Positions 49,258 to 58,025 of a stretch of 58,025 nucleotides of DNA are shown here, one piece after another. Both the position numbers and the translations under genes were made by a program. Position 1 is the stretch's first letter. Every line of letters begins with the position of its first letter. A model generated the notes under the pieces. The model did no database searches, had not been told where the DNA came from, and worked only from the letters and a program-made list of their open reading frames with translations. The stretch comes from Verrucomicrobiota bacterium (GTDB lineage: Bacteria > Verrucomicrobiota > Verrucomicrobiia > Chthoniobacterales > UBA10450): positions 19,719 to 77,743 of the forward strand of contig QHOX01000062.1 in assembly GCA_003219465.1 (NCBI GenBank), written 5' to 3'.

Positions 49258-50286
49258 ATGCAGGCCGCGTTTTACCAATCCGAATCTGAGCAGCCGCATC
49301 CGGGCCGGGCGCGGGCGCTCATCAGAGCGCATCCAGAGGTTCGCGAGTTGATGGTGCGCAATCCGTGGACGGCGCTGATCGCACTCTCGATTGTGGTAAT
49401 GCAGACGGCGATTGCCTTCGGCATGGGCCAGTTGGGTTTCGGTTACTGGTGGCTAAGTCTGCTGATCGCCGTCTGCGTTGGCGCGTTCGGCAATCATGCG
49501 AACTACGTCATCATTCACGACGCCACGCACAACCTGATTTTCCGGAGCCCGAGCTGGAACAAAATGGTGGCCATCATTGCCGATCTGCCGAATCTCACTC
49601 CGGGCGCGATGGGCTTTCGCGTTTTTCACTTAAAACATCATTCCCATCAGGGCGACTACGAATGGGACGCAGACCTGGCGAACCATTGGGAAGCCCGCCT
49701 GGTAGGCAACTCATGGTACCGGAAAGCGATCTGGCTGATGCTGTTTCCATTTTTCCAGGTCACGCGTCCGCCTCGACTCAAAGCCATCAAGATGTGGGAC
49801 CGCTGGTTCTCGATGAATCTCGCATGCGCGGTCGCGTATGATGTAGCCGTCGTTTATTTCTGCGGTTGGGCTGGATTTCTTTATCTGGTATTCGCGTTTT
49901 TGTTTTCCATTGGGTTGCATCCGGTGGGGGCACGCTGGATTCAGGAGCATTACACTTACGACTTCGACCAGGAGACGTTCAGTTACTATGGGCCAATCAA
50001 TTGGTTGGCGCTGAACATGGGTTATCACAATGAGCATCACGATTTACCCTCGATCCCGTGGAACAATCTGCCGAAGCTACGGGCTATGGCGCCGGAGTTT
50101 TACAATAATCTGAAGTATCACTCCTCGTGGAGCCGCCTTCTTTTCCAGTTTGTCTTTGATAAGCGATACAGTCTCTATTCGCGAGTGGAGCGAATGAGAC
50201 AAAAGGACGGGTCGAACGCGACATCGCAGATGACCGGCCACGAAGCGGGCAATCTTGATCTGAGTGCGCGGCCCATTAGCTTTTAG
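49258..50286 (+). CDS. DES1-like dihydroceramide/sphingolipid desaturase
   Basis: The 342-residue membrane protein of the fatty acid desaturase fold has three histidine boxes: HDATHN (residues 87-92), HLKHHSH (124-130) and NEHHD (258-262), which bind the di-iron centre. Beyond the boxes the sequence follows the eukaryotic sphingolipid delta-4 desaturase DES1: an EHYTYDF segment, FSYYGPINWL, NMGYHNEHHDLPSIPWNNLP and the end KYHSSWSRLLFQFVFDKRYS. It therefore most likely puts a double bond in the sphingoid base of dihydroceramide. It is followed after two bases by the hydroxylase gene. The start ATG at 49258 gives an N-terminus of the usual length. Confidence 0.82.
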   Translation: MQAAFYQSESEQPHPGRARALIRAHPEVRELMVRNPWTALIALSIVVMQTAIAFGMGQLGFGYWWLSLLIAVCVGAFGNHANYVIIHDATHNLIFRSPSWNKMVAIIADLPNLTPGAMGFRVFHLKHHSHQGDYEWDADLANHWEARLVGNSWYRKAIWLMLFPFFQVTRPPRLKAIKMWDRWFSMNLACAVAYDVAVVYFCGWAGFLYLVFAFLFSIGLHPVGARWIQEHYTYDFDQETFSYYGPINWLALNMGYHNEHHDLPSIPWNNLPKLRAMAPEFYNNLKYHSSWSRLLFQFVFDKRYSLYSRVERMRQKDGSNATSQMTGHEAGNLDLSARPISF

Positions 50287-50288
50287 CC

Positions 50289-50936
50289 ATGGCGGATCAA
50301 CTAGACCAGAAAAGAGCGCTCTCGAAGCCGCCCCTGTACGTCTCGACGAAAAACGAAACCGTCCGGATGTTCGACAGCGATTTCATGGAATTCTTTTCAC
50401 GCGTGCATCCGGCGACTCCATTGATTCTCTACCTGCCGGTCGTCGGCTTTATGCTTTACGTGGCACTTTGGAGACAAGGATTCCCGGTATTAGTTGTCGC
50501 GGGATCTTTCCTGCTCGGTATGCTGCTCTGGACGCTGCTGGAATATCTGATTCACCGATACATTTTCCATTACGAACCGAAAACGCGTGTGGGAAAACGG
50601 CTTCACTACATCATTCACGGCGTGCATCACGATTATCCAAACGACGGGAGAAGGCTTGTTATGCCGCCGAGCATCAGTGTTCCGCTCGCATTTCTTTTTT
50701 ACGGCATGTTCCTGCTAATCTTCGGGCGCTTTGCGTCCAGTGTGTTCGCCGGATTGGTATTCGGCTACGTTTGTTACGACATGCTCCATTATGCCACGCA
50801 CCATTTTCCGATGAAACGCGGCGTATTGCTGTGGCTGAAGCAGTACCATCTTCGGCATCACTACAAAGATGATTATGCTGGGTACGGCATCAGCTCGCCA
50901 TTGTGGGACTACATCTTTCGGACGACCCGCCGGTAA
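50289..50936 (+). CDS. FA2H/Scs7-like sphingolipid fatty acid hydroxylase
   Basis: The 215-residue integral membrane protein is of the fatty acid hydroxylase fold with histidines in the order H89, H94, H106, H110, H113, H114, H167, H171, H187, H190 and H191. The stretch DGRRLVMPPSISVPLAFLF and FGYVCYDMLHYATHH, followed by LKQYHLRHHY and GYGISSPLWDYIF, follows human FA2H and yeast Scs7, which 2-hydroxylate the N-acyl chain of ceramide. It lacks the N-terminal cytochrome b5 domain of the eukaryotic enzymes, so electrons must come from another protein. The gene begins two bases after the desaturase stop, so the pair should be co-translated. Confidence 0.82.
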   Translation: MADQLDQKRALSKPPLYVSTKNETVRMFDSDFMEFFSRVHPATPLILYLPVVGFMLYVALWRQGFPVLVVAGSFLLGMLLWTLLEYLIHRYIFHYEPKTRVGKRLHYIIHGVHHDYPNDGRRLVMPPSISVPLAFLFYGMFLLIFGRFASSVFAGLVFGYVCYDMLHYATHHFPMKRGVLLWLKQYHLRHHYKDDYAGYGISSPLWDYIFRTTRR

Positions 50937-51172: not shown

Positions 51173-52429
51173 ATGAACGTTGATCCGGCAAAACTTAGTT
51201 TGAGTAATTTCCTGGGGGGCGAAAGCGACGACCCGCTGCAACCGCCCCCGAGCTTTACAAACTGGATGCAGCTCGGCGCTTGGGCTGTTGAATTGTACGA
51301 GCCCGAGCTTCTCTCGACTGCAGATGCCCGGACCACGATCAACTACGCCGGGAAACCACAATCAGTAATCAACTTCTGTTCGTACAATTATCTCGGTCTT
51401 GCGAATCACCCCGACGTGCTTGCTGCCGCGCACGAGGCGCTGCGCACTCACGGTCTGGGCGCATGCGGTTCGCCGATGCTTTCAGGCATGACCGATCTCC
51501 ATCGCGAACTCGAACGCCGCGTCGCGAAATTTCTCAACCGCGAGGACGCCATGCTTTTCAACAGTGGATTTGGCGGCGCGCTAGGAACGATTTCCGGCCT
51601 GTTGCGCAAAAGCGATGTCGCCATTCTCGATAATCGATCGCATCTGAGCCTTCGTGACGGCGCGATTTTGTCGCGATGTCGCACGGAGAAATTCGAGCAT
51701 AACGACCCCGCCTCACTCGACGTGGCATTGGCTCGGCAGAAAGGCCGGCGTCAACTCGTGGTGGTCGAAGGCATTTATTCGATGGACGGCGATTTTGGAA
51801 ATCTACAAGAGGTGATTGACGTGGCGGACGCGCATGGCGCGAGCGTTTTCATCGACGAAGCACATTCGATGCTCAGCTGCGGCCAACATGGCCGGGGAGC
51901 TGCGGAGCACTTCGGCGTCGAGGACCGCTTTCCTCTGGTGTATGGCACGTTTTCAAAAGCGTTCGGAGCATTGGGCGGTTTCGTCGCCGGTTCCAAGGAA
52001 ACGCTGCAATATTTGCGTTTCTATGCGCATCCGTACGTGTATTCGTGCGCGCTACCGCCGGTCGTCATCGCGGCAATTCTCAAGGCGCTGGAACTCGGCA
52101 CGAGCCAGCCCGAATTGCGCGCGAAGCTTTGGGAAAACGCCGAGTACTTCCACGCTCAGCTCGACAAGCTCGGATTCGACACGGGAGCATCGACAACTTA
52201 CGTGATGCCGATTGTGATTGGGGATCGCGAGCTGATGTACCGGCTCGGGCACGAGCTGCGGCGCCGCGGTCTTTGGGTTGCGCCGGTGGATTACCCGGCT
52301 GTCCCGCAAAATCGGATCTGTTTCCGCGCGTGTGTCACAGCCAAACACACCCGCGCGGATCTGGATGAGGCGTTGAATATTCTCGAGGACACTCTCGTTC
52401 CGGCGTTGCTGCAAAAGCAAAGCGCCTGA
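51173..52429 (+). CDS. Serine palmitoyltransferase-like aminotransferase (AOS family)
   Basis: The 418-residue PLP enzyme is of the alpha-oxoamine synthase family (serine palmitoyltransferase, 8-amino-7-oxononanoate synthase, KBL). It has NFCSYNYLGLANHP, GACGSPMLSGMTDLHRELE, FIDEAHSMLSCGQHGRG with D228/H231, and the PLP-lysine motif GTFSKAFGALGGFVAG (Lys262). The first 50 residues contain the N-terminal extension seen in bacterial and eukaryotic SPT rather than in KBL. It would condense serine with an acyl-CoA or acyl-ACP to 3-ketosphinganine. Context (desaturase, hydroxylase, acyltransferase and two CDP-alcohol enzymes) favours SPT over biotin synthesis. Its TGA overlaps the start of the next gene (ATGA). 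Confidence 0.8.
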   Translation: MNVDPAKLSLSNFLGGESDDPLQPPPSFTNWMQLGAWAVELYEPELLSTADARTTINYAGKPQSVINFCSYNYLGLANHPDVLAAAHEALRTHGLGACGSPMLSGMTDLHRELERRVAKFLNREDAMLFNSGFGGALGTISGLLRKSDVAILDNRSHLSLRDGAILSRCRTEKFEHNDPASLDVALARQKGRRQLVVVEGIYSMDGDFGNLQEVIDVADAHGASVFIDEAHSMLSCGQHGRGAAEHFGVEDRFPLVYGTFSKAFGALGGFVAGSKETLQYLRFYAHPYVYSCALPPVVIAAILKALELGTSQPELRAKLWENAEYFHAQLDKLGFDTGASTTYVMPIVIGDRELMYRLGHELRRRGLWVAPVDYPAVPQNRICFRACVTAKHTRADLDEALNILEDTLVPALLQKQSA

Positions 52430-53372: not shown

Positions 53373-54509
53373 TTGATATTGAATATCGAAGTTTCAGAGG
53401 TGACATCGCGTCGTGAGCGCGATGTGTTCATCAAATTTCAGTGGCAAATTTATGCGAATGATCCGGTGTGGGTACCGCCGCTGATCATCGAACGCAAAAG
53501 GTTTCTCGATCACAAGCGGCATCCATTCTACAAGCATGGCGACGCCGCGCTATTCCTCGCGCGAAAGAACGGCAAAATCGCCGGTCGAATCATGGCCAGC
53601 GACGATCCGAATTACAATTCGCTGCACGAAACGAATGTAGGCTGTTTCGGCCTGTTCGAGTGCATCGACGATCAAGAAGTAGCCGCTGCGCTTTTTGACG
53701 CTGCGGCCAGTTGGCTTCGCAACAAAGGCCGAACCGAAATGATGGGGCCGATCGATTATTCAACGAATTACGTGTGCGGCCTATTGATCGACGGGTTCCA
53801 GTTTCCGCCTACGATTTTGACCGCGCACAACCCGCCATACTATCGCGAGTTGATCGAGAGCTGCGGCTTCGCGAAAGCGAAAGATTGGTACGCGTGGTGG
53901 TTTGCCGATCCGTCGAAGGCCGCGACGCATTTGCGACGGCTCGCAACGCGCTTGAAAACGCGTTGGCCTGTCACCATTCGTCCGGCAAATCTCAAGGACC
54001 TGCGCGGCGAGAGCAGGCGGCTTCGTCAAATTTTTAATCAGGCTTGGAAAAAGAACTGGGGTTTTGTGCCGTTCACCGAAGCCGAGATCGAGTTCATGAC
54101 GGAGGAACTGAAGCCGCTGATCGTGCCGGAGTTTGCCTGGATCGCCGAGATAGGAAATGAACCCGTTGGATTCACATTATGCCTGCCGGACATCAACGTT
54201 GTGCTGCGCGACCTGAACGGCCGACTCACTCGCTTCGGCCTGCCAATCGGCCTTATTAGACTGCTCTTCTACAAAAAGCGTATTCGAAAAGGACGTTTAA
54301 TCGCTCTCGGCGTTATTGAAAAATATCGCCGCGCCGGAATAGCGGAGATGCTTGTGCTGCGGGTCATGGAGGAAACGATGATCAAGCGCGGGATCACGGG
54401 CGAACTAAGCATGACGCTCGAAGACAATTACATGATCAACCGCTTTCTCGAAGCCATCGGAGCCCAGCGCTATAAGACCTATCGCATCTTCAAAAGGACA
54501 ATGACCTGA
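53373..54509 (+). CDS. GNAT-fold acyltransferase, candidate bacterial ceramide synthase
   Basis: The 378-residue protein has no membrane helix, and its C-terminal third has the GNAT acyl-CoA site: FAWIAEIGNEPVGFTLCLPD, then ALGVIEKYRRAGIAEMLVLR (the R-x-x-G-x-A loop) and ITGELSMTLEDNYMINRFLE. The N-terminal half begins FQWQIYANDPVWVPPLIIER and includes a PPTILTAHNPPYYRELI segment. In Caulobacter, ceramide synthase is a GNAT-type N-acyltransferase rather than a TLC-type one, and an enzyme of this fold inside an SPT operon is the best candidate for the same step. The start is TTG at 53373. The stop overlaps the start of the next gene (ATGA). Confidence 0.72.
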   Translation: MILNIEVSEVTSRRERDVFIKFQWQIYANDPVWVPPLIIERKRFLDHKRHPFYKHGDAALFLARKNGKIAGRIMASDDPNYNSLHETNVGCFGLFECIDDQEVAAALFDAAASWLRNKGRTEMMGPIDYSTNYVCGLLIDGFQFPPTILTAHNPPYYRELIESCGFAKAKDWYAWWFADPSKAATHLRRLATRLKTRWPVTIRPANLKDLRGESRRLRQIFNQAWKKNWGFVPFTEAEIEFMTEELKPLIVPEFAWIAEIGNEPVGFTLCLPDINVVLRDLNGRLTRFGLPIGLIRLLFYKKRIRKGRLIALGVIEKYRRAGIAEMLVLRVMEETMIKRGITGELSMTLEDNYMINRFLEAIGAQRYKTYRIFKRTMT

Positions 54510-55216
54510 TGAGCAAACCTCAAGACGGTTTCGTTTCACGATTTCTGAATCGGCCGATTTCGCGGCGGATAACAAGTTTTCTGCTCAAGTTTCCGCTTCA
54601 TCCCAACGCGTGGACGATATCGATCTTTGTTTTGCCGGTGATCGCAAGTGTATTCTTGGCGCGCGGTGATTACGTTAGCGTCATCATTGGCGCGGCTGTT
54701 TTTCAGGCGTTCAGTATTCTTGATGGATGTGACGGCGAGATTGCGCGCGCCAAAAATTTGGAATCGAAGTTCGGGGAACGTTTGGATTACTTCTGCGATT
54801 TTCTGGCAAGCCTTATCTATGTTCTCGCTCTTAGCCTGGGGCTTCATCATTTAGCCGAAGGAATCGTCTGCGCCGGCTTGATCACGGCTAACGAATGGCT
54901 TCTGCGCGGTGGCAAGGACGAAATGCAGATGGTTTCGGCAAAGCTGCATGAGTCGTTTTATGCGAGGCACCACGGAATGATTGGCCATTCCGGTTTGCTG
55001 AATTTCGGTGAACGATTTGTGTGGTGGATCTTCCAGCTGACCAAGCGGGACATGGCCATCCTCGTTTTCCTCGTGCTTGCGTTACTCGGCCTGGCTGTCT
55101 GGATCCTTCATCTGTGGACGGTTGTTGCCGCTGCAAGCCTGATCGTCACCGTGATCGCCACGATCAGATCCGGCATGGGTCATGGCGATGTCGTAACGCG
55201 CGAGCCGCGATCGTAA
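54509..55216 (+). CDS. CDP-alcohol phosphatidyltransferase II
   Basis: The 235-residue membrane protein has the complete CDP-alcohol motif in LDGCDGEIARAKNLESKFGE and DYFCDF (D-x2-D-G-x2-A-R-x8-G-x3-D-x3-D). It has six membrane helices (for example FVLPVIASVFLARGDYVSVI and FLASLIYVLALSLGL). The gene is the last of the coupled group that starts at 51173. It differs in sequence and length from the first CDP-alcohol enzyme, so the two probably use different headgroups or different lipids. Inositol, glycerol and ethanolamine are all possible. A nucleotidyltransferase pseudogene lies downstream on the other strand. Confidence 0.82.
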   Translation: MSKPQDGFVSRFLNRPISRRITSFLLKFPLHPNAWTISIFVLPVIASVFLARGDYVSVIIGAAVFQAFSILDGCDGEIARAKNLESKFGERLDYFCDFLASLIYVLALSLGLHHLAEGIVCAGLITANEWLLRGGKDEMQMVSAKLHESFYARHHGMIGHSGLLNFGERFVWWIFQLTKRDMAILVFLVLALLGLAVWILHLWTVVAAASLIVTVIATIRSGMGHGDVVTREPRS

Positions 55217-55248
55217 GGCGCGCGCTTTGCAAGGATTCACTCTGTATC

Positions 55249-55790
55249 TCAAGTCAGCGCGCTCTGTTGCAAGAGCCTTCGGGATCTGGCGATTTGGCTC
55301 TCCGCATGTTGCAGCATCTGCGGCGTATCCAGATCCTGCCACCAGCTCTCGCCGATGTCGATGGCCTGGACTTTACTATCGCGGGCCATCAATCGAATTG
55401 CATCAGCCAGGCTGCAATCGCTTTGGCCGCTGATGGATTTCGCTCGCTCGAGATACTCAAAGATCCAGCGGGCAAATGAACAAGCCGGTATCGATCGCAT
55501 CGTAAATCCGCGGATCTTTGCCGATGCTGACGACCCTGTTTCCGCGCCTTTGAACCTTCATCGCATCATCCAAATCGCGAATTGACTCGAGTTTTCGATC
55601 CACGGCGATGTTGAGCATGTCAGGATTCGATGAATCGATTAAAAGATCCACAATCGCATTGTCGAACAAATGATCGCTCATCGTCAAAAGAAACGGCGAC
55701 GTTATGTGATTAGCGGCTGCGAGGACCGATACGCCGTTTTGCTTTTGCCAATCGGGATTTTCGATGAAGCAGGGCTCAAGCCCGGACGGA
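55249..55790 (-). pseudogene. Nucleotidyltransferase, truncated and frameshifted
   Basis: A first frame reads ENPDWQKQNGVSVLAAANHI, TSPFLLTMSDHLFDNAIVDL, DMLNIAVDRKLESIRDLDDA, KDPRIYDAIDTGLFICPLDL and then stops. The next frame goes on FEYLERAKSISGQSDCSLAD and ESWWQDLDTPQMLQHAESQI to 55249. The whole matches the gene at the right edge (57670-58025), which is not broken there. The front with the GxGxR nucleotide-binding loop is missing, because the radical SAM gene begins at 55879. In the family, sugar-phosphate or choline-phosphate cytidylyltransferases make the CDP-linked headgroup used by CDP-alcohol enzymes. The 5' limit is approximate. Confidence 0.75.
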
Positions 55791-55878
55791 ATAGTGCGCG
55801 ACCAAAACAGGCGTCGCGAGGGCCCATTTTTGCGTCGGGAGAAGATTGCCGCTACACTGAGGATCTCATCAAAGCTGC

Positions 55879-57021
55879 ATGAAGATTCTGAAACACGTCC
55901 GCCGTGAATTTTCCGGCTACAATATTTTGGAATCGGGCAAGCGTCTGCTCGATCGCAAACCGCTGCAATGCAGTCTTTATGTCACGGATCATTGCAATCT
56001 CGATTGTGCCTATTGCACGGAGTACGACAACAGCCGGCCGCATCCCACCCTCGACGATTTGAAAAAATGGGTTCGGAAGATTCGCGAGCTTGGCACTATG
56101 CGCATTGCTCTCGTCGGCGGTGAGCCGCTCACGCATCCGAATATTGTCGAACTCGTTCGCTACTGTCGCGAGCTCGGCTTTGCCACGAGTCTGACCACCA
56201 ACGGTTTCCTCCTGACGCGTAAACTCGTCGTGCAACTGGAAGATGCCGGCCTGCAGGTGATGCAGATCAGTGTTGATCGGATGACACCGAGTTCGATTAC
56301 GAAGAAGTCCTTCAAGACGATTTTGCCGAAGCTCGATTATTTTCGTCATTCAAAAATCAGTCTCCATATCACCGGAGTGATTTGCGCCGACACCTTGCCC
56401 GAAGCGCAGGCCGTGCTCGAGACCGGTTTGTCGCGCGGAATTCCCACCGAAGTTCGCCTCGTGCATGCGGATCCTTTGCATCGGTTTCGCGTCGATCGCG
56501 GGCGGCGTGAGGAACTCGAACGTTTTATCGATTCGATGATCGAGCGAAAGCGCCGCGGGGAAAAAATTCACACCAGCGAGGCGATCCTTAATTACCAACG
56601 GAGCCTCCTCCGAGGCGAGTACGTCGAGTGGACGTGTATGGCCGGCTACAAATTATTCTTCGTTTCTGCGCAAGGGAAGTTTTGGATTTGCAGCATGGTG
56701 CACACGGACAAGCACATCATGGACGTGACGCTGGACGACCTTTACGCCAATTATCACAAGAAATCCTGCCAGGAAGGTTGCGGTGTTTACTGTGCTGTGA
56801 GTGCCTCACTGCTGGTCGAGAAACCAGTGCGCGTGCTCGGCCAAGAAATTATCGCGCGCGCCAAGCGCCTGCCGTCCATGTTGCATCCGTCTTCAAGTCC
56901 GCGAATCAATAACCCGACGTCCTCCGGCGTTACAAATCCAGATGGAACGCACAAGATGAACGGCAGCACTAACAGCGGCCCATCCGCAGATGATTGCGTA
57001 ACTTTGCGAGAAGGCACCTGA
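55879..57021 (+). CDS. Radical SAM protein with SPASM-like C-terminus
   Basis: The 380-residue protein has the iron-sulfur motif VTDHCNLDCAYCTEYDN (C-x3-C-x2-C, about residues 38-45), GGEPLTHPNIVELVRYCREL, TTNGFLLT and a C-terminal region with extra cysteines (CMAGYKLFF, WICSM, CQEGCGVYC), as in radical SAM proteins with auxiliary clusters. The substrate is unknown; radical SAM enzymes of this general type occur in lipid or polyol modification as well as in peptide maturation. The Pro/Ser-rich C-terminal 50 residues look unstructured. A truncated relative follows at 57132. The ATG at 55879 fits the family start. Confidence 0.8.
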   Translation: MKILKHVRREFSGYNILESGKRLLDRKPLQCSLYVTDHCNLDCAYCTEYDNSRPHPTLDDLKKWVRKIRELGTMRIALVGGEPLTHPNIVELVRYCRELGFATSLTTNGFLLTRKLVVQLEDAGLQVMQISVDRMTPSSITKKSFKTILPKLDYFRHSKISLHITGVICADTLPEAQAVLETGLSRGIPTEVRLVHADPLHRFRVDRGRREELERFIDSMIERKRRGEKIHTSEAILNYQRSLLRGEYVEWTCMAGYKLFFVSAQGKFWICSMVHTDKHIMDVTLDDLYANYHKKSCQEGCGVYCAVSASLLVEKPVRVLGQEIIARAKRLPSMLHPSSSPRINNPTSSGVTNPDGTHKMNGSTNSGPSADDCVTLREGT

Positions 57022-57131: not shown

Positions 57132-57680
57132 TTGCGCGGCGTTTCGACGCGGAAGGTTCTCAACAACCTGAAGAAGCGCTTGCAATGGTTGCGGGACCAC
57201 GCCCGGTTTGAAGTGGTTATCTGTGCGGTCATCGGCGCATGTCCTCCCGAGGAAGCTGATGAAGTCGTCTCCTTTGTGCGTCAGCTTGGCTTTGGCGCCC
57301 GCGTGCTTCTCGTGCACGATAGCCAGGGGCAACTCAAGTTGAGCAGTGAAGACCTGAAGGCGTTCGAGAACATCGTAGACAAGCTGCCAAGGAAATGGCC
57401 GGAATTCTCGGGCTATCGCAGGGAGCTCGTGCGCGGTCGCCCCGCACCATTCAAATGTCGCGCCGACAGCCGCTACCTTTACGTGGATGAATACGGGAAA
57501 GTGAATTGGTGCTCGCAGATCCGGAACTTGTGGTCCAAAAACCTGATGGATTACACCACCAACGATTTACGCGAACAGTTTTACCGCTATAAATCTTGTC
57601 ACGCGACGTGCACCCTCGGATGCGCCCGCTCGGCCAGCCAGCTCGACAACTGGCGCTCTCAACCAGGATTCAGCTCCTAA
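57132..57680 (+). pseudogene. C-terminal half of a second radical SAM protein
   Basis: The 182-residue frame, with only a TTG start, reads RKVLNNLKKRLQWLRDHARF, VVICAVIGACPPEEADEVVS, RVLLVHDSQGQLKL, and then PAPFKCRADSRYLYVDEYGK and SCHATCTLGCARSASQLDNW. This is like the second half of a radical SAM protein with auxiliary clusters. The C-x3-C-x2-C part is missing, so it is probably an inactive fragment. The 110 bases between it and the previous gene hold no recognisable front half. It is a different paralogue from the one at 55879, and its end is 10 bases inside the next gene. Confidence 0.65.
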
Positions 57681-58025
57681 CCAACGGGGTCAAATTCTTC
57701 TCTGCGTAGCGTAGCGCCCCGGGAGTGTCGACGTCCTGCCACCAGGTGTCGCCGATTTCTATCACCTGAGTTTTCCCATCTGCGGCCATTAATCGAACTG
57801 CGTCGGTCAAACTGCAGTCACCCTGATTGCTGGCGGATTTGGCTTTGCCCAGGTACGTGAAGATTTCTACCGGGGAAACGAACAAACCGATATCAATGGC
57901 ATCGTAGTTACCCAGGTTTTTGCCAATATCGATGACTCCATTTTTGCGCGTTCGGACTTTCATCGCATCATGCAAATCGAAAATGGAATCGAGCTTTCGA
58001 TCGACTGCCATGTTGAGCAGTTGAG
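57670..58025 (-). CDS. Nucleotidyltransferase (partial, 5' end outside window)
   Basis: The frame ends at 57670 and is open to the right edge. It reads QLLNMAVDRKLDSIFDLHDA, MKVRTRKNGVIDIGKNLGNY, DAIDIGLFVSPVEIFTYLGK, GDCSLTDAVRLMAADGKTQV and IEIGDTWWQDVDTPGALRYA. It is a close paralogue of the broken copy at 55249. The last segment is the C-terminal signature of sugar/choline phosphate nucleotidyltransferases. Only the C-terminal half is in the window; the real start is outside. The ATG at about 58011 lies inside the conserved region and is not the start. Confidence 0.75.
   Translation of the reverse strand, partial: QLLNMAVDRKLDSIFDLHDAMKVRTRKNGVIDIGKNLGNYDAIDIGLFVSPVEIFTYLGKAKSASNQGDCSLTDAVRLMAADGKTQVIEIGDTWWQDVDTPGALRYAEKNLTPLVRS

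Follow-up and report, generated by a model that had tools for sequence, protein, structure and literature searches.

The window, that is, the whole stretch of 58,025 nucleotides analysed here, ends where its contig ends, in a 4.2-Mb genome. Towards this end lies a run of same-strand genes encoding a desaturase, a hydroxylase, an oxoamine synthase, a CDP-alcohol phosphotransferase (CDP1), a GNAT protein and a second CDP-alcohol phosphotransferase (CDP2). These genes and the features that follow them are:

49258-50286 (+): desaturase, a DES homologue, 342 aa; PF08557, PF00487 and three His boxes
50289-50936 (+): fatty acid hydroxylase, 215 aa; PF04116 at 70 bits (cut-off 31) and His motifs
51173-52429 (+): alpha-oxoamine synthase, SPT-like but divergent, 418 aa; Aminotran_1_2 at 182 bits
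52429-53361 (+): CDP1, proposed to act in headgroup transfer, 310 aa; PF01066 at 47.8 bits (cut-off 22) and motif
53373-54509 (+): tandem-GNAT N-acyltransferase of the YghO / CC_1154 family, proposed ceramide synthase, 378 aa; Acetyltransf_1 and homology
54509-55216 (+): CDP2, 235 aa; 41.9 bits (cut-off 22) and motif
55247-55855 (-): second nucleotidyltransferase copy, truncated and frameshifted, a pseudogene; tblastn match in two pieces, and reading frames
55879-57021: radical-SAM-type gene 1, beside the operon
57132-57680: radical-SAM-type gene 2, 182 aa; no Pfam model match, resembles the C-terminal half only
57670-58025 (-): nucleotidyltransferase, cut by the window end to its C-terminal part; NF041135 at 52.5 bits (cut-off 580)

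The last four genes of the run, from the oxoamine synthase to CDP2, follow one another tightly: CDP1 and the GNAT gene are 11 bp apart, and the other neighbours, GNAT and CDP2 among them, overlap by 1 bp. The hydroxylase gene lies 236 bp from that of the oxoamine synthase. An initial annotation had placed the GNAT gene between two CDP-alcohol enzymes, and both neighbours do score above the Pfam cut-off and carry the motif DxxDGxxARx8GxxxDxxxD, which we take to be the catalytic motif of CDP-alcohol phosphotransferases. Among NCBIfam models, CDP2 comes closest to NF041135, matching its inositol-phosphate transferase half at 78 bits (cut-off 580). The same annotation had the GNAT gene following the SPT-like gene closely; the two do share a tight operon, but one CDP-alcohol gene stands in between and the GNAT gene comes two genes on.

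The nearest named relatives of the locus are metagenome-assembled genomes of Verrucomicrobia, Chthoniobacterales and Candidatus Udaeobacter (66-85%), with one among them (L036) titled Acidobacteria. In relatives, two minus-strand genes come next, a nucleotidyltransferase and then a short-chain dehydrogenase (SDR). A second contig of the same genome, C80, overlaps the end of the window by 186 identical bases and holds the remainder of the nucleotidyltransferase gene, whose frame is open across the join, as well as the SDR reductase. The window thus has two nucleotidyltransferase copies with the radical-SAM pair between them, the first broken and the second open across the contig join, and resembles a hybrid of both gene arrangements found in relatives.

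The GNAT protein and its family

The GNAT open reading frame has 378 codons and begins with TTG; an alternative TTG at 53379 also fits, and relatives start within 1-2 residues. Pfam Acetyltransf_1 covers residues 217-354, in the second half of the protein (3.1e-10, 40.8 bits, cut-off 20.7), and the acyl-CoA loop noticed in the initial annotation is indeed visible, with [QR]xxGx[GA] represented by RRAGIA at residue 319. When 72,556 plasmid records were searched with the GNAT by tblastn, 45 matched, among them E. coli YghO (36.6% identity over 99%, E 1e-64) and the GNAT of a Sphingomonas parapaucimobilis cluster (30.9% over 99%); in the sequence comparison, these Sphingomonas and E. coli family members represent Caulobacter CC_1154. 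In the Sphingomonas cluster the GNAT is accompanied by LptF/LptG, an ACP, an NAD(P)H-binding protein and an aminotransferase whose 833 bits exceed the cut-off of an SPT model, while in an E. coli plasmid record (PN43) yghO adjoins genes for an oxoamine synthase, an ACP, an epimerase and an acyl-AMP ligase. In the excerpted text of PMC9386255, CC_1154, yghO/ECD_02850, Swit_3908 and others are treated as one gene, 'aca', whose product is the acyl-CoA N-acyltransferase of dihydroceramide synthesis (dihydroceramide N-acyltransferase). The homology to YghO and the Sphingomonas GNAT, together with this naming, places the window GNAT in a known N-acyltransferase family. No model in the Pfam and NCBIfam scans marks YghO or the Sphingomonas GNAT.

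The gene yghO itself is present in 4501 of 5426 complete E. coli genomes. At MG1655 (NC_000913.3:3129043-3131340), an IS5 element adjoins it, and this stretch is devoid of the oxoamine synthase, ACP, epimerase and ligase genes that flank yghO in PN43.

How the window protein relates to the studied enzymes was examined with profiles and a tree. Three profiles, all free of Chthoniobacterales rows, were built from 10 proteobacterial SPT-linked rows, from 15 SPT-linked rows, most of them belonging to Ignavibacteria and Bacteroidota, and from 7 unlinked rows; the window GNAT scores 367, 436 and 287 bits against them, respectively. On leave-one-out, 31 of 32 rows score best in their own set, the exception being an Ensifer row (L135). 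The 80-bit margin of the proteobacterial over the unlinked profile is moderate evidence, because for several Ignavibacteria rows the former gives no better score than the latter. Two residues, W225 and R308, are shared by the window GNAT and all 22 SPT-linked rows and occur in none of 6 unlinked rows, in columns that were chosen post hoc. In a tree of 83 rows, the window row groups with those of Chthoniobacterales, close to Streptomyces (support 85). The proteobacterial rows, including the studied enzymes, form a separate clade (SH-aLRT 100), and a further clade (95) unites rows from Chloroflexi, Vescimonas and Bacteroides finegoldii that lack SPT linkage. Because it falls outside the proteobacterial clade, the window GNAT is a family member and not a close orthologue of the studied enzymes. 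Along this tree, linkage switches state 20 times against a shuffled mean of 27.9, with many 'unlinked' rows having a flank of 1.5 kb only; SPT linkage is therefore clustered on the GNAT tree, yet far from perfectly so. An unrelated GNAT subfamily, the outcome that the initial annotation had set against its own reading, is rejected on the homology to YghO (36.6%), the tree, the W225/R308 columns and the profile scores (367 and 436 versus 287 bits). We regard the GNAT as a well-supported, and on these comparisons highly probable, member of the bacterial ceramide synthase family.

An AlphaFold2 model of the GNAT, built from a 16-row alignment, is confident (mean pLDDT 88.1, pTM 0.87) and adopts a tandem GNAT fold, matching tandem GNATs over its whole length by Foldseek and structural comparison. 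Its top matches are tandem acetyltransferases, mycothiol synthase among them, and not long-chain acyltransferases: MAB_4324 (7q3a) aligns with Z 24.2 (rmsd 3.5, 301 aligned) and the glucosamine N-acetyltransferase 5kf2 with Z 23.1 (rmsd 3.7, 297 aligned). A PDB sequence search with the GNAT, and one with the desaturase, matched no chain. Such folds could suit an enzyme acting elsewhere, for example an acetyltransferase on an amino headgroup, with another gene supplying the ceramide synthase, and the GNAT gene does sit between both headgroup enzymes. The predicted fold, however, cannot separate acetyl from long-acyl transfer, since the matched tandem GNATs span many substrates, and N-myristoyltransferase 1nmt is also among the matches (Z 15.8, rmsd 4.7, 286 aligned). 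The GNAT is moreover homologous to the named N-acyltransferase family (as excerpted in PMC9386255), it is the sole member of the YghO family in its genome, in single copy, and it keeps an SPT-like neighbour even in phyla whose loci showed no CDP-alcohol gene next to it. That the GNAT acts elsewhere is very improbable in our judgement.

Conservation of the cluster

We compared 40 Chthoniobacterales-type loci (the window and L002-L040), counting for each neighbour only the loci with enough flanking sequence. An SPT-like gene lies upstream of the GNAT gene in all 33 loci that have at least 2.5 kb upstream, an agreement that makes a chance arrangement untenable. Also upstream are CDP1 (36/37), the hydroxylase (26/27) and DES (22/24), and downstream follow CDP2 (20/34), the nucleotidyltransferase (19/21) and the SDR (19/20). 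Within the window's family, a GNAT match (E 1e-40) occurs in 64 of 83 genomes, including a 26% paralogue in one of them (G637), and in 26 of 30 good genomes; a desaturase match occurs in 48 of 83 and 15 of 30, respectively. Both are found in 40 genomes, on the same contig in 32.

Outside this order, 45 GNAT copies were considered (L041-L081). An oxoamine synthase gene lies within 6 kb in 18 of these and within 200 bp in 16; for the remaining 27, some at short loci, no oxoamine synthase was found within 6 kb, and the GNAT family may have other roles too. Pairs of neighbouring GNAT and oxoamine synthase genes extend over at least 7 phyla (Verrucomicrobiota, Calditrichota, LCP-89, Ignavibacteriota, Bacteroidota, Balneolota, Actinomycetota, Pseudomonadota), and the two also adjoin in Streptomyces, Rubrobacter, Acidisoma, Rahnella and Aureispira records.

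Several further genes recur around the cluster. A fusion gene with NTP-transferase and CDP-alcohol transferase domains (L026:11139-12446, minus strand) belongs to a family found in 11 loci and occupies the place of CDP2 in several relatives that lack it (e.g. L023, L026, L027, L030, L032), a hint that, where they are separate genes, the nucleotidyltransferase and CDP2 serve the same headgroup pathway. An MMPL-family transporter gene, possibly a lipid exporter, lies 5′ of the desaturase in 8 of 40 loci (e.g. L007:3-1865, plus strand). On C80, about 6 kb past the SDR, are genes for an FtsX/MacB-type permease and an ABC ATPase (L160:2327-4269), whose families turn up repeatedly close to the cluster in relatives; they could possibly form a lipid transport system.

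Desaturase, oxoamine synthase and reductase

The product of 49258-50286 is a homologue of sphingolipid delta4-desaturase (DES) with the corresponding putative activity. It scores 29.2 bits (cut-off 23) against PF08557 (Sphingolipid Delta4-desaturase; N-terminal Lipid_DES) and 97.9 bits against PF00487 (FA_desaturase), with His boxes HDATH, HLKHH and HNEHH. Enzymes of the DES family are known to act on N-acyl sphinganine. PF08557 occurs in 4 of 288 sampled Verrucomicrobiota genomes and in 4 of 299 sampled Pseudomonadota genomes. At a locus from another Verrucomicrobiota family (L149), genes for a hydroxylase, a GNAT, a CerR and a desaturase that passes PF08557 stand in a row, and two Pseudomonadota loci (L156 and L158) line up genes for an oxoamine synthase, a GNAT, a desaturase and a hydroxylase. 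At a third (L157), the 19 kb around the desaturase gave no match to the GNAT, hydroxylase or oxoamine synthase; a fourth, of 3 kb (L155), had no match to the window desaturase, nor did the plasmid collection contain a relative of it. Related groupings are found in Acidisoma, where a hydroxylase-type gene, an oxoamine synthase, an SDR and a GNAT lie together, and in Roseomonas, where a sterol-desaturase-family gene is directly 5′ of the GNAT gene.

The oxoamine synthase is harder to place. Against three curated NCBIfam SPT models it scores 322, 316 and 256 bits, all below the cut-offs of 500, 640 and 670, and its PDB matches to KBL (1fc4) and SPT (3a2b) are nearly equal. In a tree of 52 oxoamine synthases it belongs to a deep Chthoniobacterales clade where long branches meet; it lies outside a 32-row SPT clade that includes the Sphingobacterium and Sphingomonas SPTs, and on the same side of the KBL/BioF split, a placement that rests on a very short inner branch. 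It contains TFSK and IDEAH motifs. A second oxoamine synthase of the same genome groups with E. coli KBL in the tree, and with this separate KBL-like gene present the operon gene is ruled out as the housekeeping KBL. With a divergent sequence and no score that reaches a curated SPT cut-off, this enzyme leaves its amino-acid substrate as the weakest link in our reading. Were alanine, glycine or cysteate used in place of serine, the GNAT would acylate a 1-deoxy-, sulfono- or other 2-amino-3-keto base, an option that fits the enzyme's own deep clade and its near-equal closeness to KBL, and for which 1-deoxyceramides in Black Sea water, credited to bacteria in the literature excerpts consulted, offer a parallel. 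Against it stand the two CDP-alcohol transferases and the nucleotidyltransferase, which suit a C1 hydroxyl, the separate KBL-like gene, and the substrate of the DES family as described above. We consider such a substrate unlikely, and serine remains the amino acid in the pathway proposed below.

The reductase bears on the order of the reactions. KdsR (3-ketodihydrosphingosine reductase, NF049977) is the second-best NCBIfam family of the SDR, over its full length, in scans of two relatives (L010 and L022), with scores of 167 and 170 bits that are below the cut-off of 400. The SDR of the window's own genome, on C80, is 76% identical to a relative's SDR and has the motifs GASSGIG (GxxxGxG) and YNAAK (YxxxK); an SDR with the same motifs, Bacteroides BT_0972, is a proven 3-ketosphinganine reductase according to excerpts of PMC9278070. 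For CerR of the Sphingomonas type, the same genome yielded one weak partial match only. In Caulobacter, one group proposes that 3-ketosphinganine is acylated first and reduced afterwards, with Spt and bCerS cytoplasmic, CerR periplasmic, and an oxidised ceramide accumulating without CerR (PMC11087976, in excerpt). The initial annotation's appeal to Caulobacter, where a GNAT-type enzyme was said to N-acylate sphinganine, holds for the enzyme family, while sphinganine as the substrate is disputed with 3-ketosphinganine in the excerpted literature. Acylation before reduction at the window locus is a genuine possibility, though we lean against it; with a KDSR-like SDR present and no good CerR found, the eukaryote-like order, reduction before acylation, seems the more natural one.

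Proposed pathway and known systems

What we observe is the set of genes with the families they belong to, the conservation of their linkage and the homology of the GNAT to a known N-acyltransferase family; from this we infer each reaction, the acyl donor, the order of steps and serine as substrate. The SPT-like enzyme would join serine and an acyl thioester in a condensation that yields a 3-keto base, which the SDR would reduce to sphinganine. The GNAT would then transfer a fatty acyl group onto the amino group of sphinganine, giving the N-acylated product into which the DES homologue may introduce a 4,5 double bond (or a 4-hydroxyl). The hydroxylase would add a hydroxyl, probably to the acyl chain, and the nucleotidyltransferase and CDP-alcohol transferase would attach a phospho-headgroup. 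Family homology and SPT-like linkage sustain the earlier reading of the GNAT as a candidate ceramide synthase, and that it acylates the amino group of the operon's sphingoid base to form a (dihydro)ceramide is very probable.

Bacterial ceramide synthesis as such is already known. We give about even chances to the broader proposal that Udaeobacter-type Chthoniobacterales encode every step of a eukaryote-like ceramide route within a single cluster, making sphingosine-type hydroxylated phosphoceramides, and that the cassette is mobile between phyla. If so, the presence of the same SPT-GNAT-desaturase-hydroxylase cassette in Pseudomonadota would reflect a bacterial module moving between phyla. The Chthoniobacterales hosts of the cluster are common soil bacteria. 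A soil lipidome study reports ceramides raised in dry soil, some of them 2′-hydroxylated, and in its excerpted text discusses these mainly as fungal while asking about a bacterial contribution (PMC9969633). If the proposal is true, part of the soil 2-hydroxylated ceramides now credited to fungi would be bacterial, and, should the cluster work as read, 4-unsaturated, hydroxylated ceramides would be an unsafe fungal or animal signature in soil. In our searches of open-licence PubMed Central papers, those on Udaeobacter included, we found no bacterial cluster with an N-acyltransferase, a delta4-desaturase homologue and a hydroxylase.

Compared with known systems, the window GNAT resembles bCerS/CerS (Caulobacter CC_1154) and E. 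coli YghO in belonging to the same family over its full length and in its linkage to an SPT-type gene; it differs in lying outside the proteobacterial clade. Of the rhodobacterial five-gene dihydroceramide set (aasR, cerR, acpR, spt, cerS), CerR, AcpR and AasR are missing from the window operon, where an SDR stands as partner reductase instead of CerR. With this set and the Caulobacter phosphosphingolipid cluster CC_1152-CC_1168, as excerpted in PMC11324152, the window shares a single region that brings together an SPT-type gene and genes for N-acyltransferase, CDP-alcohol and nucleotidyltransferase enzymes. Relative to the rhodobacterial and Caulobacter clusters, that of the window adds the PF08557 desaturase and the hydroxylase, and shows no LptF/LptG among its operon genes. 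With the eukaryotic DES/DEGS proteins (PF08557), the desaturase shares the N-terminal Lipid_DES domain, above the curated cut-off, and the FA_desaturase domain, but it is bacterial and lies within an SPT-like-GNAT operon. The GNAT is thus a new member of a known family, and the cassette, judged by the literature searched, looks like a new variant of the bacterial sphingolipid clusters.
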